The position numbers and the translations under genes were made by a program. Positions 10,374 through 22,126 of a stretch of DNA of 64,000 nt are shown here, one piece after another. Position 1 is the first letter of the stretch, and each line of letters opens with the position of its first letter. The notes below the pieces were generated by a model. It was given only the letters and a program-made list of their open reading frames with translations. It did no database searches and was not told the origin of the DNA. This DNA comes from Acidobacteriota bacterium (GTDB lineage Bacteria > Acidobacteriota > Vicinamibacteria > Vicinamibacterales > 2-12-FULL-66-21): positions 124,069 through 188,068 of the forward strand of contig QHWT01000047.1 of NCBI GenBank assembly GCA_003222675.1, in the 5' to 3' direction.

Positions 10374-11770
10374 TGGTTCACCGCCAAGGGAAAGTCGCCC
10401 GGCCGCGACGCGTTCGCCTCGAACAGGAACCCGTCGTGCAGCCTCGTCAGCGTCGATTCCGCGTGCGCCTCGTCAACGACCAAGGCCAGCGGCGAGCTCC
10501 CTGATGGCCGCGCGACCATGTGCACCGGCGTATCCCCCAGCACGGCCAGCGCATCGCGGATGAGCCGCGGCTCGGCGGACCAGCCGCGGCCGACGGCGCA
10601 CACCGCGGCGAGTCCGCGACGCAGCCGCACGTCCGCAAACGCCGCGACGCCGCTGCAGAAGCCGTCGAAGTCGGCCGAGTCGTCGACCGCGACCGACAGG
10701 CGATTGCCGCAGAGGTCCGCGAGCACGACCGGGGTGCCTCCCTGCGCCAGCACGTGAAACACCTTCGCGGCGAAAAACTCGCGGCCGCGCGTGTCGCGCG
10801 AGATCACCTCCACCAGCGTCACGCCGCTGCGACACGCAACCGCCGTCAACCGCGGGTCGACATCGAGATCAGTGTGCGGCCCGATAATCGTTCCGGTCGC
10901 GTCGGGACGGCGCGAGTTGAGCACGCGGACGGGAATGTTGCGGGCCGCCGCCGGCTGAATCGTCGCGGGATGCAGCACCTTCGCACCGAATATCGCAAGG
11001 TCGTGCGCCTCGGCGTACGACAGCCGCTCGACGAGCCGCGCGTGCGCAATGACGCGAGGGTCGGCGGTGAGAATGCCGTCGACATCAGTCCAGATCTGAA
11101 TTTCGTCGGCCGAAAGGCATGCGCCGAGGAGGGCCGCGGAATAATCGGATCCGCCGCGCCCGAGGGTTGTGGTCGATCCGTCCGGCGCCGATCCGATGAA
11201 TCCGCCGATAACCACGACCCGATCCGATGCGAGGAGCGGTCGAACGAGTTTGTCGACCGCGCGAGCGGTAGGGACGAGATCGGGCGTGGCGGCCTGGTAT
11301 CGGGCATCGGTGTGGACGATTTCGGGCGGGTCGAGCCAGCGCGACGCAATGCCCGCGTCCTCGAGCAGCGCCGCGACGAGGCGGCTGCTCCACAACTCGC
11401 CGGTCGCGACGAGACGATCCGCCGAGGCGGGCGTCGGCCTCGCGCGCCCGGCCGCGCGGATCGCGGCGACGGCGCCGCGCGCGGAACGTGAGAGCCCGTC
11501 GATGCCGGCGGAGAGCAGGCGACGCCGTTCGGCATGGCGGACCGCGCGCGCGACGTCATGGTGCCGCGCCGTCAGGCCGTCCAGCGCGCGGAGCGCCGCG
11601 TGTTCGTCGGCGCAGGCGACCTCGCCGATCTGCAGGAGCGCGTCGGTGACGCCGGCGAGCGCCGAGACCACCACCACGCGCGCGCCGCGCTGCGCGCCCA
11701 CGATGGCAGCGGCACGCCGGATGGCGTCCGCGTCGGCGACCGACGTTCCTCCGAATTTGAGCACCAGCAT
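10370..11770 (-). CDS. ask: Aspartate kinase (threonine/sulfur operon copy), 466 aa
   Basis: Phosphorylates aspartate, the entry to the aspartate family. The ATG at 11770 gives MLVLKFGGTSVADADAIRR, the standard kinase N-terminus; earlier in-frame codons belong to the attenuator region. Other motifs are GRGGSDYSAALLG, IWTDVDGILTADPR and FGAKVLHPATIQP, followed by C-terminal ACT domains. A second aspartate kinase lies in the lysine operon (28695-30068), so the two are probably under different end-product control. It is the first structural gene after the leader at 11874-11969 and the terminator at 11808-11846. Confidence 0.94.
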   Translation of the reverse strand: MLVLKFGGTSVADADAIRRAAAIVGAQRGARVVVVSALAGVTDALLQIGEVACADEHAALRALDGLTARHHDVARAVRHAERRRLLSAGIDGLSRSARGAVAAIRAAGRARPTPASADRLVATGELWSSRLVAALLEDAGIASRWLDPPEIVHTDARYQAATPDLVPTARAVDKLVRPLLASDRVVVIGGFIGSAPDGSTTTLGRGGSDYSAALLGACLSADEIQIWTDVDGILTADPRVIAHARLVERLSYAEAHDLAIFGAKVLHPATIQPAAARNIPVRVLNSRRPDATGTIIGPHTDLDVDPRLTAVACRSGVTLVEVISRDTRGREFFAAKVFHVLAQGGTPVVLADLCGNRLSVAVDDSADFDGFCSGVAAFADVRLRRGLAAVCAVGRGWSAEPRLIRDALAVLGDTPVHMVARPSGSSPLALVVDEAHAESTLTRLHDGFLFEANASRPGDFPLAVNQ

Positions 11771-11807
11771 CGCTGATCTCCGCTGTTCTCCCGCTTCGCG
11801 CCCCTCA

Positions 11808-11846
11808 AAAAACAAAAAACCCGCCGGCTTGTGAAGTCCGGCGGGT
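11808..11846 (-). terminator. Attenuator terminator before aspartate kinase
   Basis: On the minus strand CCCGCCGG and CCGGCGGG form an 8-base stem (plus-strand arms 11820-11827 and 11838-11845) followed by T6-G-T6. It lies 38 bases before the kinase start, after a leader ORF. GTCCGGTGG at 11896-11904 can pair with CCGCCGGAC at 11836-11844, giving an alternative antiterminator. Confidence 0.85.
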
Positions 11847-11873
11847 GTTTACGGTGCACGCAGTCTGAAACGA

Positions 11874-11969
11874 TCAGGGTGCATATACGCAAACGCCACC
11901 GGACACGCGAATTCGCATGGTGCGATTTCGCATGCTGGTCTTGGTGGCGGTGCAGCTACAGCAGCCCAT
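11874..11969 (-). CDS. Leader peptide of the threonine/sulfur operon, 31 aa
   Basis: ORF ATG 11969 to TGA 11874, starting MGCCSCTATKTSMRNRTMRI, then a tail with Val, Gly, Cys and Tyr. It carries four Thr (all ACC), three Met, one Lys, one Ile and four Cys, i.e. aspartate-family and sulfur amino acids. The antiterminator strand GTCCGGTGG lies in codons 22-25, so a ribosome stalled on the upstream Cys/Thr/Met codons would leave it free, while one reading to the stop would cover it and allow the terminator. The ATG lies 8 bases after a -10 box with no Shine-Dalgarno, so the transcript may be leaderless. Regulation by translation is inferred. Confidence 0.65.
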   Translation of the reverse strand: MGCCSCTATKTSMRNRTMRIRVSGGVCVYAP

Positions 11970-11977
11970 TAACCGCG

Positions 11978-12007
11978 AGTATAGGCACCTCGGCGAGCCG
12001 GCGTCAA
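11978..12007 (-). promoter_or_regulatory. Promoter of the threonine/sulfur operon
   Basis: Minus strand TTGACG (12002-12007), 18-base spacer, TATACT (11978-11983). It is a near-consensus sigma70 promoter directed at the leader ORF. The lysine-operon leader has the same TTGACG-N18 arrangement. Confidence 0.75.
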
Positions 12008-12061
12008 GAGGGGCACGTCCGGTATATAACCGGCATTTATCATCGAAGAAAGATTATAAGT

Positions 12062-12091
12062 TTGACACCTGCTGCCATGCGGACCGATCAT
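12062..12091 (+). promoter_or_regulatory. Possible ilv operon promoter
   Basis: TTGACA at 12062-12067 is a perfect -35; with an 18-base spacer the -10 would be GATCAT (12086-12091), which is weak. The spacing to the leader ATG (7 bases) matches the two minus-strand leaders. TATAAG at 12055-12060 is an alternative -10 with a poor -35. Confidence 0.4.
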
Positions 12092-12098
12092 GGAGGCC

Positions 12099-12167
12099 AT
12101 GACGACCTGCGTCGGGGTGTCGCTCGCCATTCGACTTATTGGAGTTACGGCCCTCAGCGCCGGATGA
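12099..12167 (+). CDS. ilv operon leader peptide, 22 aa
   Basis: ATG 12099 to TGA 12165-12167, reading MTTCVGVSLAIRLIGVTALS plus Ala-Gly. Eight of 22 residues are branched-chain (three Val, three Leu, two Ile) and three are Thr, the isoleucine precursor. An in-frame ATG at 12090 would add three residues. ACGGCCC at 12147-12153, inside the peptide's distal codons, is complementary to the 5' arm of the downstream terminator (GGGCCGT, 12200-12206). This is the classical ilv/leu attenuation layout: stalling on the Val/Leu/Ile codons frees the antiterminator. Confidence 0.75.
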   Translation: MTTCVGVSLAIRLIGVTALSAG

Positions 12168-12199
12168 CGACGCCCCTTATCGAGACGACAGATTTTACG

Positions 12200-12232
12200 G
12201 GGCCGTCATCCACAAGGGTGACGGCCCTTTTT
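12200..12232 (+). terminator. ilv attenuator terminator
   Basis: GGGCCGTCA (12200-12208) pairs with TGACGGCCC (12219-12227), a 9-base perfect stem with a 10-base loop, followed by TTTTT. It sits between the leader peptide and ilvD. The 5' arm can instead pair with ACGGCCC at 12147-12153. Confidence 0.88.
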
Positions 12233-12258
12233 GTTGTTGGGACGGCGCGGATTTGGAG

Positions 12259-12278
12259 GCCGGACCTTAAGGTCCGGC
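12259..12278. repeat. 20-base palindrome before ilvD
   Basis: GCCGGACCTTAAGGTCCGGC is a perfect 20-base palindrome, ending just before the ilvD start region. Its right edge supplies part of the GGCGGGAG Shine-Dalgarno-like sequence. It belongs with the other REP-like palindromes of the window. Confidence 0.8.
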
Positions 12279-12282
12279 GGGA

Positions 12283-14016
12283 GTGGTTGTGGCGGACCAG
12301 AAAGATAAATGGCAGAGCGGCGCGATTACGGACGGTCCCAGCCGGGCTCCCGCGCGCGCGATGCTCCGCGCGGTCGGATTCGATCGACAGGCGCTCGCCC
12401 GACCGATCGTGGGCGTTGCCAACACCTGGACCGAGATCGGACCCTGCAATTACCACTTGCGCGACCTCGCGATCCCGCTGAAGGAGGCCATCCGCGCGGC
12501 CGGCGGCACGCCGATGGAGTTCAACACCGTCTCGATCTCCGACGGCATCACGATGGGCTCGCCCGGCATGCGCGCCTCGCTCGTCAGCCGCGAAGTGATC
12601 ACCGATTCGATCGAGCTCGTGGCGCGCGGCAACCTCTTCGATGCGCTGGTCGTGCTCGTCGGCTGCGACAAGACCATCCCGGCGGCCGCAATGGCGCTCG
12701 CGCGCCTCGACATCCCGGGCGTCATCCTTTACGGCGGGTCGATCGCGCCGGGCCGTGTTCAGGGACGCGACGTCACCATTCAGGATGTGTTCGAAGCGGT
12801 CGGGGCGCATGCCGCAGGGCGGTTGTCGGATGCCGGCCTCTGTGAGATCGAGGATCGCGCGTGCCCCGGCGCCGGCGCGTGCGGCGGACAGTTCACCGCA
12901 AACACGATGGCGACCGCGTGCGAGTTCCTGGGTCTCGCCGCGATGGGGAGCGGCGATGTGCCCGCAACCGATCCTGACAAGCGCCAGGTCGCCGTTCGCA
13001 CCGGTGCGCTTGTGATGGAGGTCCTCCACAACGATCGTCGTCCTTCGCGGATCGTCACGCGAGAGGCGCTCGAGAACGCGATCGCGTCAGTGGTCGCGAC
13101 GGGCGGGTCGACGAACGCGGTGCTCCACCTGCTGGCGATCGCGAACGAGGCCGGCGTGGCGCTCGAGATTGACGACTTCGATCGCATCAGCGCGCGCGTG
13201 CCGCTCCTGGCGGATCTCAAGCCGGGTGGACGATTCGTCGCGGCCGATCTTCACGCGGCCGGCGGCACGAGGCTGCTGGCCAGACGCCTCATCGAGGCGG
13301 GCGTGCTGCACGCCGAGGCCCTCACGGTCAGCGGCCGCACGGTGGCAGAGGAAGCGGCGCGCGCTTCTGAAACTCGCGGTCAGGAAGTGATCCGTCCGGT
13401 GAGCGCACCGCTCAAGACCACCGGCGGCCTTGTAATCCTGCGCGGCAATCTCGCGCCCGACGGGTGCGTCGTCAAGGTCGCGGGTCACGACCACGTGACG
13501 CATCAGGGTCCGGCGCGTGTGTTCGACTCCGAGGAAGACGCGTTCGCCGCGGTGCAGACGGGGCGCATCTCTCAGGGTGATGTCGTCGTGATCCGCTACG
13601 AGGGGCCGCGCGGCGGCCCTGGCATGCGCGAAATGCTCGCTGTGACGGCGGCCATCGTGGGCGCCGGGCTCGGCGACTCCGTCGCACTCGTCACCGACGG
13701 CCGCTTCTCGGGCGCGACGCGGGGATTGATGGCGGGGCACGTGGCTCCGGAAGCGGCGAGCGGCGGACCGATCGCCGCGGTGCGCGATGGCGATCTGATT
13801 ACGCTCGATCTGAACGCGCGAGGAATTCGGATTGAGATCAGTGATGCGGAACTTGCGTCGCGGCTGGCGCGGTGGACCCCGCCGCGACCCCGATATGCAG
13901 ACGGCGTCATGGGCAAGTACGCGCGGCTCGTGGGATCGGCCGCCGCGGGCGCCGTGACCACCGCGCATGCGGTGCAGGAACACACCGAGCAACGCTTCAC
14001 GGTAGGGACAAAGTAG
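12283..14016 (+). CDS. ilvD: Dihydroxy-acid dehydratase, 577 aa
   Basis: Iron-sulfur dehydratase of valine/isoleucine synthesis, converting 2,3-dihydroxy acids to 2-oxo acids. Cluster cysteines are visible in GPCNYH, GCDKTIPAAAMA and ACPGAGACGGQFTANTM; LVTDGRFSGATRG near residue 475 is the family signature. Length is typical (about 560-580). The start is GTG at 12283 or GTG at 12289; the second lies a better 6 bases from GGCGGGAG. First structural gene after the attenuator; ilvB follows 47 bases later. Confidence 0.94.
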   Translation: MVVADQKDKWQSGAITDGPSRAPARAMLRAVGFDRQALARPIVGVANTWTEIGPCNYHLRDLAIPLKEAIRAAGGTPMEFNTVSISDGITMGSPGMRASLVSREVITDSIELVARGNLFDALVVLVGCDKTIPAAAMALARLDIPGVILYGGSIAPGRVQGRDVTIQDVFEAVGAHAAGRLSDAGLCEIEDRACPGAGACGGQFTANTMATACEFLGLAAMGSGDVPATDPDKRQVAVRTGALVMEVLHNDRRPSRIVTREALENAIASVVATGGSTNAVLHLLAIANEAGVALEIDDFDRISARVPLLADLKPGGRFVAADLHAAGGTRLLARRLIEAGVLHAEALTVSGRTVAEEAARASETRGQEVIRPVSAPLKTTGGLVILRGNLAPDGCVVKVAGHDHVTHQGPARVFDSEEDAFAAVQTGRISQGDVVVIRYEGPRGGPGMREMLAVTAAIVGAGLGDSVALVTDGRFSGATRGLMAGHVAPEAASGGPIAAVRDGDLITLDLNARGIRIEISDAELASRLARWTPPRPRYADGVMGKYARLVGSAAAGAVTTAHAVQEHTEQRFTVGTK

Positions 14017-14056: not shown

Positions 14057-14063
14057 GGGATCG

Positions 14064-15773
14064 ATGAAACGCACAGGAGCGCAGATTCTCTGGGAATGTC
14101 TGGTGCGGGAAGGGGTGACCGAAGTGTTCGGGTATCCCGGCGGCGCCATTCTGCCCGCGTACGACGCCATGCTCGATTATCCGATCCGGCACACCCTGGT
14201 GCGGCACGAGCAGGGGGCCACGCACATGGCGGACGGCTATGCGCGCGCGAGCGGAAAGGTCGGCGTCGCGATCGCGACGTCGGGTCCTGGCGCGACGAAC
14301 ATGGTCACCGGGATCGCGACCGCGATGCTCGACTCATCGCCGATCGTGTGCATCACGGGACAGGTGGGCAGCCGGCTGATCGGCACTGACGCATTCCAGG
14401 AAATCGACATCACCGGCATCACGCTCCCGGTGACGAAGCACAACTATCTGGTGACGTCCGCTCAGGACGTGGCGCGGACGGTCCGCGAAGCGTTCATGAT
14501 CGCGAAGTCCGGACGCCCCGGGCCGGTGTTGATCGACATTACGAAGGACGCGCAACAGGCCTCGTGCGAGTTCGAGTGGGAGACTGCGGCGCCGGTGGTG
14601 CCCGGCTGGCGCGAAGCGCCGCCACTCGGACGCGCCGAGCTCGCGCGCGCGGCCGAACTGATCAGGACCGCCGAGCGGCCGGTCATTCTCGCGGGACATG
14701 GCGTCACGATCTCCGGCGCCGAGCCGGCGCTGCGCGCGTTCGCCGAGCGCGCGAATATTCCCATCGCAGCCACGCTGCTCGGCATCGGCGGCTTCCCCGC
14801 GTCGCATTCACTCAATCTCGGCATGATGGGCATGCACGGGGAGGCGTGGGTGAACCTCGCCATCCAGGAAGCGGATCTCCTGATCGCGTGCGGCATGCGC
14901 TTCGACGATCGCGTGACCGGCAACCTCAAGACCTACGCGCCGCATGCCAAGAAGATCCACATCGAGATCGATCCGTCGGAGATCAACAAGAACGTACGAG
15001 TCGACGTCGCGCTCGTCGCCGATCTGCGCGACGTGCTCGAGCGCCTGGTGCCGCTCACGGAGCCGGGCCATCGCCAGGCGTGGTTCGATCGCATCGCCGG
15101 ATACAAGGGAGACTCCGCCGTCCGCGACATCCAGTCGCTGCCCGACGATGGTCATCTCTATGCCGCGCACGTGATCAATGACCTGTGGCGCGCGACGCGC
15201 AGCCAGGACACCATCGTCGTCACCGACGTCGGCCAGCACCAGATGTGGGAAGCGCAGTACTACCATCACGAGAATCCGCGCTCGCTCATCACGTCGGGCG
15301 GCCTCGGCACGATGGGCTTCGCCGTGCCGGCGGCAATCGGCGCCAAGCGCGCCCGGCCCGAAGCGGAAGTGTGGGCGGTGGTCGGCGACGGCGGCTTCCA
15401 GATGACGATGTGCGAGCTGGCGACCGCCGTGCAGGACGCGATCAATATCAAGGTCGCGATCATCAACAACGGATATCTGGGCATGGTGCGGCAGTGGCAG
15501 GAGTTCTTCTACGAGCGGCGCTACGCCGCGACGCCGCTGTCCGGGCCCGACTTCGTCAAGCTGGCCGATGCATTCGGGATCCGCAGTCGCGCCGTGTCGA
15601 CGCGTAGCGATGTGCTGTCGGCGATTGCGGATGCCACGGCGCACGAAGGACCTGTCGTGATTGATTTCAGGGTCGAACAGGAAGACACCGTGTACCCGAT
15701 GGTGCCGGCTGGCGCGGATCTGCACGCGATGATCCGCCGGCCCAATCCAATCGTCGAGACGGCCGCGGACTAG
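14064..15773 (+). CDS. ilvB: Acetolactate synthase large subunit, 569 aa
   Basis: ThDP-dependent condensation of pyruvate to acetolactate (or with 2-oxobutyrate). Start ATG 14064 gives MKRTGAQILWECLVREGV, the usual N-terminus. GYPGGAILPAYDAM carries the region before the catalytic Glu in RHEQGATHMADGYARASG; GDGGFQMTMCELATA with IINNGYLGMVRQWQ is the ThDP/Mg motif; the FAD-binding middle domain includes GMRFDDRVTGN. Length is standard. The regulatory subunit ilvN follows after 16 bases. Confidence 0.95.
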   Translation: MKRTGAQILWECLVREGVTEVFGYPGGAILPAYDAMLDYPIRHTLVRHEQGATHMADGYARASGKVGVAIATSGPGATNMVTGIATAMLDSSPIVCITGQVGSRLIGTDAFQEIDITGITLPVTKHNYLVTSAQDVARTVREAFMIAKSGRPGPVLIDITKDAQQASCEFEWETAAPVVPGWREAPPLGRAELARAAELIRTAERPVILAGHGVTISGAEPALRAFAERANIPIAATLLGIGGFPASHSLNLGMMGMHGEAWVNLAIQEADLLIACGMRFDDRVTGNLKTYAPHAKKIHIEIDPSEINKNVRVDVALVADLRDVLERLVPLTEPGHRQAWFDRIAGYKGDSAVRDIQSLPDDGHLYAAHVINDLWRATRSQDTIVVTDVGQHQMWEAQYYHHENPRSLITSGGLGTMGFAVPAAIGAKRARPEAEVWAVVGDGGFQMTMCELATAVQDAINIKVAIINNGYLGMVRQWQEFFYERRYAATPLSGPDFVKLADAFGIRSRAVSTRSDVLSAIADATAHEGPVVIDFRVEQEDTVYPMVPAGADLHAMIRRPNPIVETAAD

Positions 15774-15789
15774 ACCAGGGAGACGCATC

Positions 15790-16338
15790 GTGAAGCTGCA
15801 CACATTCACCGTCTACGTCGAAGATCGGCCCGGGGTGCTCAACCGCGTGGCGTCGCTCTTCCGGCGTCGCGGATTCAATATCCAGTCGCTCAGCGTCGGC
15901 CACAGCGAGACGGCCGGCGTGTCGCGCATGACGGTCGTCGTCGAGACCGACGATAGCGGCGCGGCGCGCATCAAGGCGCACGTCTACAAGCTGATTAACG
16001 TCGTCCGCGTCGAGGACATCACCGACCGGCCGTCGGTCGTCCGCGATCTCGCGCTGATCAAGGTGAGCGCGAATCATCAGAATCGCGCGGCGGTCATGCA
16101 GCTTGCGAACGTCTTCCACGCGCGCGTGGTCGACGTCGCCCCCGAATCGCTCGTCGTCGAGATGGTGGGATCGGAAGCCAAGATCGACGGCCTGCTGGAA
16201 GTACTGCGGCCGTACGGTGTGCTGGAGATGGTTCGCACCGGTCGCGTGGCCATGGCGCGGGGGTCGGGCGCGGGCGTTGCGGCTGGCGGCGGGCGGTTCC
16301 TGCCCGAGGCCGAAGAGGGATTTTCTTACAGCGTGTAA
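15790..16338 (+). CDS. ilvN: Acetolactate synthase small (regulatory) subunit, 182 aa
   Basis: Regulatory partner of IlvB conferring valine feedback. GTG start at 15790, giving an N-terminal ACT domain (LHTFTVYVEDRPGVLNRVAS, then RRGFNIQSLSVGHSE) and the C-terminal ALS_ss_C domain (residues 75-160, LALIKVSANHQNRAAVM). About 20 residues beyond the domain (Gly/Ala/Arg-rich, ending EGFSYSV) form a loose tail. Downstream lies a 460-base repeat-filled gap before ilvC. Confidence 0.94.
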   Translation: MKLHTFTVYVEDRPGVLNRVASLFRRRGFNIQSLSVGHSETAGVSRMTVVVETDDSGAARIKAHVYKLINVVRVEDITDRPSVVRDLALIKVSANHQNRAAVMQLANVFHARVVDVAPESLVVEMVGSEAKIDGLLEVLRPYGVLEMVRTGRVAMARGSGAGVAAGGGRFLPEAEEGFSYSV

Positions 16339-16397: not shown

Positions 16398-16419
16398 CTG
16401 GGCGCGCATGGCGCGCCCT

Positions 16420-16792
16420 GCGAGGGAGCGGAGCGGGGCGCAGGGTCCCCGCGAGCGACCGAGCCGGGGTATGGGGCGGAGCCCCATGTTAGTGCGAGGG
16501 AGCGGAGCGGGGCGTAGCGGTCCCCGCGAGCGACCGAGCCGGGGGTATGGGGCGGGGCCCCATGTTAGTGCGAGGGAGCGGAGCGGGGCGCAGGGGTCCC
16601 CGCGAGCGACCGAGCCGGGGTATGGGGCGGAGCCCCATGTTAGTGCGAGGGAGCGGAGCGGGGCGCAGGGGTCCCCGCGAGCGACCGAGCCGGGGTATGG
16701 GCGGAGCCCCATGTTAGTGCGAGGGAGCGGAGCGGGGCGCAGGGGTCCCCGCGAGCGACCGAGCCGGGGTATGGGGCGGAGCCCCATGTTAG
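16420..16792. repeat. Five tandem copies of a ~75-base unit between ilvN and ilvC
   Basis: Units start at 16420, 16494, 16570, 16645 and 16719 (74, 76, 75, 74 and 74 bases), each running from 'gcgagggagcggagcgggg' to 'gagccccatgttagt'. Copies differ by a few substitutions and one-base indels. Each contains palindromic GGGGTCCCC and GGGGCGGAGCCCC cores. The last unit ends in the ilvC Shine-Dalgarno (aggaggacgag before ATG 16802). Both strands are open in some frames, but the repeated translations are not real proteins. Confidence 0.92.
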
Positions 16793-16801
16793 GAGGACGA
16801 G

Positions 16802-17776
16802 ATGCCGAAGGTGTATTACGACGCGGATGCCGACCTGGCCCTGGTACGGGGCCGCAAGGTGGCGGTGCTCGGATATGGATCGCAGGGACACGCGCATGCG
16901 CTGAACCTGCGCGAGAGCGGCGTCGACGTCCGCGTCGGGCTGCCCGCGTCGAGCGGATCGCGCGCAAAGGCGCAGGCAGATGGGCTCACGGTGCTCGAGC
17001 CCGCCGCCGCGTGCGCGTGGGCCGACGTGATCATGGTGCTCGTGCCGGACACGGTGCAGGCTGCACTGTACCGCGACGCGATCAAGCCGAATCTGGCGAA
17101 CGGCAAGACGCTGATGTTCGCGCATGGCTTCAACGTGCGCTTCGGCACACTCGATCTGGTGCGCGAGCTCTACCAGGAAGGTGCGGGCACGCCCGCGCTG
17201 GTGGCAGTCCACCAGGACGCGAGCGGCAAGGCGCGCGACTTCGCGCTGTCGTACGCGAAAGGCATCGGCGTGACGCGCGCCGGCGTCATCGAAACAACGT
17301 TCGCGGAAGAGACCGAAACCGACCTCTTCGGCGAGCAGGCGGTGCTGTGCGGCGGCGTCAGCGCGCTCGTCAAGGCTGGATTCGAAACGCTCGTCGAAGC
17401 GGGCTATCAGCCGGAGGTCGCATACTTCGAGTGCCTCCACGAGCTCAAGCTGATCGTCGATCTGATGTATCAAGGCGGGCTGAACTACATGCGCTACTCC
17501 GTCAGCGACACGGCGGAGCACGGCGATTACACGGGCGGTCCGCGATTGATCACCGATCAGACACGTCAGGAAATGCGCAAGATGCTTGCGGAGATCCAGG
17601 ACGGCACCTACGCGCGGCGCCGCTGGATCGACGAGGACAGGAAGGGTCGCCCGTGGTTCAACGAGACGCGCACTCGCGAACGTCAGCACCAGATCGAGCA
17701 GGTGGGCGCAAAGCTGCGAGCGATGATGCCGTTCCTCAAGCCGAAGAAGGCGCCGGAACCGGCGGGCGTCGCGTGA
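16802..17776 (+). CDS. ilvC: Ketol-acid reductoisomerase with a missing catalytic segment, 324 aa
   Basis: Class I KARI, normally converting acetolactate to dihydroxyisovalerate with NADPH and Mg. The Rossmann motif [12 protein letters not shown] (24-35), FAHGFN with His108, and the metal-binding [14 protein letters not shown] are all present. After NVRFGT (residue 116) the sequence passes directly to [13 protein letters not shown]. Class I enzymes have about 20 more residues there, including the conserved IVPPxDVDVxMVAPKxPGH with the lysine equivalent to E. coli Lys155. The deletion is in frame (near 17147-17158). Length 324 against about 338. Either the enzyme is impaired, or the sequence or assembly lost about 60 bases. 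A strong ribosome site (aggagg) is supplied at the end of the repeat array. Confidence 0.88.
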
Positions 17777-17851: not shown

Positions 17852-18802
17852 ATGTCTGGACTCACGTGGATGAACGGGCGGCTTGTGCCGGAGTCGGAGG
17901 CGGTAGTGCCCTTCCTGACCGCCGGGCTCCATTACGGCATGGGTGTGTTCGAAGGCATCCGCTGCTACGACACGGCCGACGGACCGGCCGTGTTCCGGCT
18001 GCGCGATCACGTGCTGCGCCTCGTCGCGTCTGCGAAGACGCTCGGCTTCCGTGAGCTGCCGTACGACGAGGCCACGCTGAGCGCCGCCATCCACGAGACG
18101 ATCAGCGCCAACGCTCTTCGCGCGTGCTACATCCGTCCGGTGATTTTCCTCGCCGAAGGAGGCATGAACCTCAACATTGACACCGGGCGTCCCCATGTTG
18201 GGATAGCCGTGTGGCCGTGGAAGGAGTTCCATGGCGAGGGCAGCCTCGATGCGGGCATCCGCGTCAACGTGTCGTCGTACACGCGCCATCACCCGAACAT
18301 CATGATGACGCGCGCGAAGATCTCCGGCAATTACGTCAACTCGTTCCTGGCGAAGACCGAGTCAGTCCGCCTCGGCTTCGACGATGCGGTGCTCCTCGAT
18401 CCTGACGGCTACGTCGCGGAGTGCACGGGCGAGAATCTGTTCGTCGTCACTCGTGGCCGGATCATCACGCCGCCCGTCGCGGGCATTCTCGAGGGCATCA
18501 CGCGCGACACGGTGATCACGCTGGCGCGCGACGCGGGACTCACGGTCGTCGAAGAACGGATCGTCCGCGACCGCCTGTACGACGCCGACGAGGTGTTTCT
18601 CTCGGGGACCGCGGCGGAGGTGATCGGCGTGCGCGAGGTGGACTTCCGGACGATTGGTTCGGGATCGATCGGCCCGATCACGCGCACGGTGCAGCAGGCC
18701 TTCCGTCAGACGGTGCGCGGTGAGCATCACCGCTCGCCCGAATGGCTGGAGCCGGTCCTGCCGCTCGACGACGAGGCGGAGGCGAAAATACTGCGGGCGT
18801 GA
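17852..18802 (+). CDS. ilvE: Branched-chain amino-acid aminotransferase, 316 aa
   Basis: Fold-type IV PLP aminotransferase for the last step of Val/Leu/Ile synthesis. GMGVFEGIRCY near residue 30, RAKISGNYVNSFLAK with the PLP lysine, and the Glu-containing AECTGENLFVV are diagnostic. GILEGITRDTVITLA and LSGTAAEVIGVREVD follow. Length fits IlvE (about 300-310). No good Shine-Dalgarno is seen because the upstream gap is palindromic repeats. Its TGA overlaps the GTG start of the LysR gene (GTGA). Confidence 0.94.
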   Translation: MSGLTWMNGRLVPESEAVVPFLTAGLHYGMGVFEGIRCYDTADGPAVFRLRDHVLRLVASAKTLGFRELPYDEATLSAAIHETISANALRACYIRPVIFLAEGGMNLNIDTGRPHVGIAVWPWKEFHGEGSLDAGIRVNVSSYTRHHPNIMMTRAKISGNYVNSFLAKTESVRLGFDDAVLLDPDGYVAECTGENLFVVTRGRIITPPVAGILEGITRDTVITLARDAGLTVVEERIVRDRLYDADEVFLSGTAAEVIGVREVDFRTIGSGSIGPITRTVQQAFRQTVRGEHHRSPEWLEPVLPLDDEAEAKILRA

Positions 18803-20467: not shown

Positions 20468-22126
20468 AGATTCCGCGAGACCAGTACGCGGGCCTCTATG
20501 GCCCAACGGCCGGCGATCGCGTGCGTCTCGCCGACACCGGTCTCGTGTTGCAGATCGAGCGCGACTTCGCGCGATATGGGGAGGAGGTGCCGTTCGGCGG
20601 CGGCAAGGTCGTGCGGGATGGGCAGGGTCAGTCGCAGGTGTCGCGCGGGGAAGGCGCGCCGGATCTCGTCATCACGAACGTGATCGTCCTCGATCACTGG
20701 GGCGTGGTGAAGGGGGACGTCGGCGTCCGCGACGGCCGCATCTCGGCGATCGGCAAGGCGGGAAACCCCGGCATCCAGGACGGCGTGACGCCGGGCCTTG
20801 AACTCGGCGCATCGACGGAAATCATCGCCGGCGAGCATCGTATTCTGACGGCTGGCGGGATCGACTCGCACATCCATTTCATCAGTCCGCAGCAGGCGTG
20901 GGAAGCGCTCTACAGCGGCGTCACGACGATGATTGGCGGCGGCACCGGACCGGCGGACGGCACGCGCGCCACGACGTGCACGCCGGGCGAATGGCACATC
21001 CACCGGATGATCGAAGCCACCGACAGCCTGCCGCTCAACTTTGGTTTTCTGGGCAAGGGCAACGCGTCGCGCGAGGAGCCGCTGATCGAGCAGGTCCGGG
21101 CCGGCGCGATCGGCCTCAAGCTGCACGAAGATTGGGGCACAACGCCGGCAACAATCGATGCGGCGCTCACCGTCGCGGACGCGTACGACGTGCAGGTCGC
21201 GATCCACACCGACACGTTGAACGAGTCGGGATTCGTCGAGGATACGCTCGCGGCCATACGCGGCCGCACCATCCACACCTATCACAGCGAAGGCGAGGGA
21301 GGCGGCCATGCGCCCGACATCCCCAACGATGCCGTTCACGGTGAATACGCTGGACGAGCACCTGGACATGCTGCTCGTGTGCCATCACCTCAACGCGCAG
21401 GTGCCGGAAGACGTGGCGTTCGCGGAATCGCGCATCCGCCCGGAAACGATGGCGGCCGAAGACGTGCTGCACGATCTCGGCGCGATCAGTATGATGTCCT
21501 CCGACTCGCAGGCCATGGGACGCGTCGGCGAGGTGATCATGCGGACGTGGCAGACAGCGCACGTCATGAAGGCTGCGCGCGGTCCTGTTGCGGGAGACCC
21601 GCGGGAGCACGACAACCGGCGAATTCGGCGGTATCTCGCGAAATACACGATCAATCCCGCGCGCGCGCATGGCATCAGCGAGTATGTTGGATCGATCGAG
21701 GTCGGCAAGTACGCGGACCTGGTGTTGTGGTCCCCCGCGTTTTTTGGCGTCAAGCCGGATCTCGTGATCAAGGGCGGCTTCGTCGCCGCCGCTTTGATGG
21801 GCGATCCCAATGCCTCGATCCCGACACCAGAGCCGGTGCGGTACCGTCCGATGTTCGGCGCCCTGGGTCGCGCGACAAGCGCCGTGTCGTGGACGTTCGT
21901 GTCTCAGGCTTCAATCGACGAACATCGGTTGCCGTCACGCGTCGATCGTGCGCTGCTGCCGGTGCATGGCACGCGCGCGCTCGGGAAGCGCGACATGATT
22001 CTCAACGACGCGTTGCCGCGAATCGATATCGACCCTGAACGTTATACCGTCGTCGTCGATGGCGAGGCAGTCGTGCCCCAACCCGCCGCGACGCTTCCTA
22101 TGGCCCAGCGATATTTCCTGTTCTGA
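20464..22126 (+). pseudogene. ureC: Urease alpha subunit, disrupted by an internal deletion/frameshift
   Basis: Catalytic urease subunit in two frames. From 20464 the frame reads [20 protein letters not shown] through GIDSHIHF (nickel His pair), the carbamylated-lysine region [18 protein letters not shown] and [15 protein letters not shown]. At about 21318-21323 homology jumps to another frame reading [24 protein letters not shown] (active-site flap Cys-His) and [12 protein letters not shown] (nickel Asp), ending PMAQRYFLF at 22126. Intact UreC has about 15 residues (around GEPNVLPSSTNP) between these points. A loss of 44 bases (or another length giving remainder 2 on division by 3) fits. Every catalytic residue is encoded but not in one frame. 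All other ure genes look intact, so an assembly error or a recent mutation is likely. Confidence 0.9.

Follow-up and report, generated by a model that had tools for sequence, protein, structure and literature searches.

The segment at positions 12099 to 12232 of the window, by which we mean the whole 64,000-nt stretch of acidobacterial DNA analyzed here, is best read as a ribosome-mediated transcription attenuator of the ilvD-ilvB-ilvN-ilvC-ilvE operon, drawn from a phylum-level family of such elements with interchangeable sensing peptides. Based on sequence comparison and modeled folds, we place the probability of this reading at about 0.87. Attenuation of this operon by a translating ribosome had been proposed in the first-pass annotation, and the proposal is supported by three features that recur in relatives: the leader reading frame, the branched-chain codons within it, and an antiterminator incompatible with the terminator.

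The ilv operon and its leader ORF

The window belongs to an assembly of 7.16 Mb in 152 contigs and is most closely related to Acidobacteria bins, several of which are named Vicinamibacteria. The operon is encoded on the + strand and begins with ilvD (12283..14016; NCBIfam ilvD, 698.8 bits), for which a GTG at 12289 is an alternative possible start. It is followed by ilvB, encoding the acetolactate synthase large subunit (14061..15773, start approximate; NCBIfam acolac_lg), ilvN, encoding the small subunit (15790..16338; NCBIfam acolac_sm), ilvC, encoding ketol-acid reductoisomerase (16802..17776; NCBIfam ilvC), and ilvE, encoding a branched-chain transaminase (17852..18802; NCBIfam ilvE_I). 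Upstream of the leader, divergent genes on the - strand encode aspartokinase, homoserine dehydrogenase and threonine synthase. Because the upstream gene is divergent, the leader terminator serves no + strand gene upstream of it.

Translation of 12099..12167 (+ strand) gives MTTCVGVSLAIRLIGVTALSAG, followed by the stop codon UGA at 12165-12167, which agrees with the 22-codon leader with eight Val/Leu/Ile and three Thr residues described previously. Eight branched-chain residues in 21 codons are not significant as a composition (binomial P ~0.09, assuming a 23% background), and since the window leader is unconvincing by itself, the attenuator was accepted on comparison with relatives. In a same-genus relative (L003) the leader reads MTKVVGVSVVIRLLGITALRAG, and 8 of 8 Val/Leu/Ile positions remain Val/Leu/Ile, with exchanges among these residues. 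A short ORF carrying codons for the products of the operon is therefore conserved in front of it.

A consensus scan predicted a promoter at 12062..12091 (+ strand), with TTGACA at 12062-12067, an 18-nt spacer and GATCAT at 12086-12091. The leader AUG lies 7 nt after the -10 hexamer, and the promoter scores 10.1 with an in-frame ATG at +7. The elements TTTGACA and GAT(C/G)AT and the 7-nt gap to the AUG were all kept in the alignment with L003. A GGAGG at 12093-12097, considered as a Shine-Dalgarno sequence for the leader, was rejected, as it is not conserved in L003. With the promoter 7 nt before the AUG, this gap kept and the GGAGG not, the sequence indicates that the window leader probably sits on a leaderless or near-leaderless message. 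Among the leaders of the wider family described below (124 of 127 loci used), promoter-like sites upstream had a median best score of 7.86, versus 4.03 in shuffled sequence, and scores above 7 were found at 74 of 124 loci versus 12 of 124 after shuffling. At the 98 loci with a score of at least 5, an ATG 7-11 nt after the -10 hexamer was in frame with the leader 31 times, versus 2 and 5 times for the other frames. At other family loci the ATG lies 20-30 nt downstream instead, so that a leaderless start is not general.

According to PMC7298713, the attenuated trpL transcript of Sinorhizobium meliloti has its 5' end at the ATG of the leader ORF, and this RNA acts in trans as well. The start predicted here resembles that arrangement, which might suggest that the terminated ilv leader exerts its main effect in trans, either as a small RNA or through its peptide. 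The S. meliloti system, as described there, differs in having Trp rather than branched-chain codons and in its additional trans action. Nothing in our data points to a trans target and a cis-acting switch accounts for the conservation, so we give a mainly trans-acting leader almost no credence compared with attenuation in cis.

Two predicted, mutually exclusive folds of the leader RNA

An intrinsic terminator precedes the first structural gene, as seen in both sequence and fold. The 9-base perfect stem and five T noted previously were recovered; if extended with G-U, the stem has 13 pairs, followed by the five T (12199-12232). Its 5' arm (strand 3, 12199..12211, + strand) is common to the terminator and the antiterminator, its 3' arm (strand 4) occupies 12216..12228 (+ strand), and the T run 12228..12232 (+ strand); the 5' arm is supported by the fold and by covariation with both of its partners, and the 3' arm by the terminator scan and the fold. 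Three terminator-like sites were found in 11800-12400, versus 0.6 expected, and the 166-nt leader has a more stable fold than 200 of 200 dinucleotide shuffles (z -3.78).

The antiterminator strand (strand 2, 12162..12176, + strand; GGATGACG-AC-GCCCC) corresponds to GGRUGA in relatives and contains the leader stop codon, so that a ribosome terminating at this UGA would cover it. It forms a 13-pair duplex with strand 3 (-22.3 kcal/mol). When strand 2 was left free and strand 1 (see below) was made unavailable, 12158-12232 folded as the antiterminator (-31.0 kcal/mol) and the full terminator was lost. When strand 2 was masked, 12177-12232 folded as the terminator (-26.7 kcal/mol). That the antiterminator excludes the terminator is found both in this switch calculation and in covariation (relatedness uncorrected). 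A ribosome at the stop codon would cover strand 2, and one waiting at Val, Leu or Ile codons up to Val16 would not. As modeled, the leader has the geometry of a classical attenuator.

In the proposed mechanism, RNA polymerase would start at or next to the leader AUG, and the leader would be translated from a leaderless or near-leaderless message. With Val-, Leu- and Ile-tRNA plentiful, the ribosome would reach the UGA at 12165 and cover 12162-12176; 12199-12211 would then pair with 12216-12228 and transcription would end. A ribosome stalled at the upstream branched-chain codons would leave strand 2 free to pair with the terminator arm over 13 bp, and with this antiterminator formed, transcription would proceed into ilvD.

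The first-pass annotation had assigned the role of antiterminator strand to ACGGCCC (12147..12153, + strand). This heptamer is indeed the exact complement of GGGCCGT in the terminator 5' arm, and it is kept in L003. However, it is the weaker of two partners (-13.4 versus -22.3 kcal/mol, a difference of 9 kcal/mol from 12162-12176), and when 12147-12211 was folded with both strands free, the terminator arm was taken by 12162-12176. In addition, a stall at Ile14 or Val16 would hide ACGGCCC, judging from the general footprint of a ribosome. The strand that recurs is GGATGA... with the stop codon: across the family, 134 of 156 sequences have a G.TGA site in the segment that pairs best with the terminator 5' arm and loop, and the other 22 have none there. 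On energy and recurrence, ACGGCCC was rejected as the main antiterminator, and ribosome-mediated attenuation through this heptamer is very unlikely; the complementarity stands, and the role would fall to the strand at the stop codon.

The minimum free energy fold of the whole leader combines the terminator with a pairing between strand 2 and a further strand (strand 1, GGGGTGTCG, 12114..12122, + strand), which can pair with 12168-12176 as a protector or pause hairpin, both in the whole leader and in 12099-12180. If the ribosome stalled at late codons, strand 1 would lie exposed behind it. This pairing was assessed across the family with a mispairing control in which each leader was paired with the downstream segment of every other locus (109 non-redundant loci of 126). 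Own pairings gave -23.25 versus -22.88 for permuted ones, and 2700 of 20000 permutations were as good; for an upstream control region, 310 of 20000 permutations reached or fell below the own value, which makes the test noisy. A conserved protector was accordingly not supported beyond the window by this control.

Conservation upstream of ilvD in relatives

The regions upstream of ilvD in relatives were located by IlvD protein similarity and scanned for terminators and small ORFs. A leader was found in relatives, but among the 7 genomes of the window's family with a close ilvD, four (L004, L005, L006 and L008) had no element in the 450 nt read; in L008 a match to the covariance model described below lies further upstream than this. 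At Nitrospira and other non-acidobacterial ilvD loci, the simple scan detected few terminators (L027 and L053), and these had other sequence.

Twenty-one sequences including the window were aligned, and this alignment is the basis of the pair counts and of the model. With relatedness uncorrected, 4 of 12 terminator pairs showed changes on both sides and 96.4% of cells were paired; for the antiterminator, 3 of 11 pairs showed such changes and 90.9% were paired, a value that would be lowered by at least two sequences (L021 and L028) that look misaligned at strand 2.

A family of predicted attenuators in the Acidobacteriota

A covariance model, designated R1, was built from the 21 aligned sequences, with the window among its seeds. 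R1 matched at least 106 of 193 genomes of the class (E up to 0.01) and at least 59 of 396 genomes in a sample of the phylum that included the class (E up to 1e-4); behind non-acidobacterial ilvD loci, 1 of 30 genomes matched (E up to 1e-4, at a different scoring depth). The window scores 61 bits, with the GGRUGA stop site, the complementary terminator arm and the leader peptide all present; since it is 1 of the 21 seeds, this match is circular. The features that recur across the family are a stop codon within GGRUGA, the complement of GGRUGA in the terminator, and the terminator itself.

Two further tests on the family bear on the antiterminator. At the variable position of GG(R)UGA and its partner UCA(Y)CC (123 of 150 sequences kept), 122 clear cases comprised 76 A:T, 18 G:C, 20 G:T and 8 A:C combinations (Fisher P 7e-6, relatedness uncorrected). 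The two bases that follow strand 3, mostly loop positions of the terminator, find a complement in the leader bases immediately preceding strand 2 in 73% and 61% of cases, versus 58% and 41% after shuffling, with 0 of 2000 shuffles as high (132 of 156 sequences, 122 non-redundant loci after removal of duplicates, relatedness uncorrected). The first of these bases may extend the terminator stem at some loci, and the second is the cleaner sign. The 13 loci from outside the class did not show this loop covariation.

An ordinary intrinsic terminator next to a chance small ORF, with no translation-dependent regulation, would fit the unremarkable composition of the window leader and the fact that R1 also matches some loci without a leader (e.g., L212, L213, L215 and L216). 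By comparison, the terminator sits between divergent genes and before ilvD, the frame is conserved, the antiterminator co-varies and the codons match the pathway. Based on position and conserved coding, a plain terminator was rejected, and we consider it highly improbable against the attenuator.

A search of Rfam found no family matching the leader or the R1 element, and the window leader matched none of the Rfam leader families (Leu, Thr, His, Trp, Phe and others) at gathering score. The lowest E-value in the leader region was for suhB (E 0.52; 16 bits versus a gathering score of 41), and no T-box or riboswitch model matched the leader. By sequence, the window element is one copy of a widespread attenuator family absent from Rfam.

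Leader codons and downstream genes

Among the matches listed, 149 loci were read, with antisense twins of the same terminator skipped. Downstream genes were assigned from their likeness to window genes and to a small number of others; Pfam was used to check IlvA, PheA and the LeuA-like domain, and NCBIfam to check the window genes. The first recognised gene was homoserine dehydrogenase (hom) at 37 loci, ilvD at 32, prephenate dehydratase at 15 (with ilvD following in several), ilvB at 10, ilvN at 7, aspartokinase at 4, ilvA at 3, a LeuA-like gene at 3, LysR-type regulators at 5 and others at 8. At 25 loci none was recognised, and 12 of these carry a small ORF of the GYGHG type described below. 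The gene downstream at L155 and L160 is presumably isoleucyl-tRNA synthetase, and the LysR, MFS and other labels of unassigned neighbors are likewise our presumptions.

The peptides were analyzed by frame at 127 of 150 loci, 23 having been dropped because the motif was not found. The +2 frame (stop UAG; e.g., L113, L118, L144 and L155) was taken if the UGA frame has a stop in its last 15 codons, a rule blind to composition. In the 20 codons before the UGA, Val, Ile and Leu make up 33% in frame at 33 ilvD loci (versus 13% and 9% in the other frames) and 44% at 15 ilvB or ilvN loci (versus 18% and 9%). Leu makes up 25% at 11 small-ORF loci (versus 11% and 8%), and Thr 35% at 4 aspartokinase loci (versus 5% and 1%).

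Labels were also permuted among 94 non-redundant leaders of the 127, for residues chosen after the peptides were read. In 0 of 20000 permutations was the observed enrichment reached for Thr plus Met in hom leaders (0.206 versus 0.087; Thr alone, 26 of 20000), Thr in aspartokinase leaders (0.350 versus 0.080), Leu in leaders of the small GYGHG genes (0.244 versus 0.068), Val plus Ile in ilvB/N leaders (0.362 versus 0.173) or Val in leaders of the PheA-IlvD group. Val alone in ilvD leaders was less sharp (0.184 versus 0.114; 333 of 20000). Met-rich hom leaders occur at L183, L247 and L248. At several pheA-ilvD loci (L126, L151-L153, L163, L165, L172 and L182), Phe codons stand amid Val codons, which would suit a sensor of two amino acids. 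In terms of sequence, then, the leader peptides follow the downstream genes, with Val/Ile before ilvD and ilvBN, Thr (and Met) before hom, Thr before aspartokinase and Leu before the GYGHG-tailed small protein.

These codons also bear on whether the terminator could be governed not by a stalled ribosome but by some factor, protein or ligand, with affinity for the conserved GGRUGAUG/CAUCAYCC. The sequence of strands 2 to 4 is common to operons for different amino acids, seemingly beyond what base pairing would need, which such binding might explain. The leader peptides differ from one downstream gene to another in just the amino acids expected, a pattern that one ligand or protein would leave unexplained, and we regard such control as extremely unlikely. 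It is mainly because the leader codons match the pathway that a ribosome sensor is preferred.

Leu-type attenuators of the family are followed by small ORFs ending in GYG(H/Y/F)G(V/I) and a stop codon at L132, L135, L137, L139, L142, L149, L159, L161, L168, L184 and L125. The observation also takes in L145, L185 and L157 and, in the window's genome, G000:C36:105211-105231 (L186 and L192), and in some genomes similar small ORFs sit between the attenuator and homoserine dehydrogenase. In the window's genome, among others, a LeuA-like enzyme ends in this GYG(H/Y/F)G(V/I) tail. Searched as DNA, the GYGHG-tail pattern is present in 76 of 149 genomes from the order, usually as a single copy, and its reversed control gave few matches. 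Four of the GYGHG-tailed small ORFs were without a match in Pfam.

Relation to known attenuators

Ribosome-mediated attenuators control the ilvGMEDA, leu, thr, his, phe and trp operons of enteric bacteria. The window element shares with these a leader with product codons, an antiterminator and an intrinsic terminator that exclude each other, and a stop codon that would favor the terminator upon ribosome termination. It is unlike them in lacking an Rfam leader match, in that one stop-codon/antiterminator sequence serves different amino-acid operons and in its probable leaderless start. PMC2965389 is consistent with the previous remark that reports of such attenuation are rarer for this phylum.

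As described in PMC11857589, the ilvBNC attenuator of Corynebacterium glutamicum has terminator, antiterminator and anti-antiterminator hairpins, and initiation on leaderless messages is discussed there. It resembles the window element as a branched-chain operon with a terminator and an antiterminator, and differs in phylum and gene order; the likeness is drawn from the description. RNA motifs before branched-chain genes are also covered in PMC8632094, where WRC-18-2 (ilvD, Veillonella) and WRC-14-1 (ilvB, Leptospira) are proposed as weak riboswitch candidates; these are found in other phyla and are set apart from our element by description rather than by sequence.

In the searched literature, as far as its text was accessible, no description of the R1 attenuator family was found. 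A comparative survey by Lopatovskaya and others from 2010 may already describe some of these sites. With R1 as a searchable model, a mechanism and a sensed amino acid can be proposed for many such sites together, and the family would offer a naturally occurring series of related switches that differ in sensor for tests of leader-peptide requirements and of attenuator evolution.

A broader proposal, tentative and in our view somewhat short of even odds, is that one module (a stop codon in GGRUGAUG, a terminator CAUCAYCC...GGRUGAUGGCC and a loop that also pairs with the leader) spread through the Acidobacteriota by duplication and exchange. It would have been fitted with peptides for Val/Ile, Leu, Thr, Met, Phe and Ile-tRNA synthetase genes, would be partly leaderless, and some copies would control small proteins with a LeuA-type GYGHG(V/I) tail. 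If this were true, these small proteins would be signs of an unrecognized regulator acting on leucine and threonine synthesis.

Other features of the window

The window had also been said to hold two aspartate-family leaders. Viewed by eye, the divergent aspartokinase gene does have, within 11770-12010 on the - strand, a terminator of its own (ACCCGCCGG...CCGGCGGGT and a run of T) as well as a putative leader, MGCCSCTATKTSMRNRTMRIRVSGGVCVYAP plus stop codon, which begins 8 nt 3' of TATACT; this leader and terminator are without a match to R1. Within the possible leader, GTCCGGTGG is complementary to CCGCCGGAC of the aspartokinase terminator.

Between the ilv terminator and the ilvD start lies a palindrome, CCGGACC-TTAA-GGTCCGG (12259-12279). 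Within the operon, a 75-bp unit is repeated five times in tandem between ilvN and ilvC (16419-16792), with copies 96% alike. Downstream of the operon, Rfam 5_ureB_sRNA matches 20625-20895 on the - strand (55.7 bits versus a gathering score of 40).
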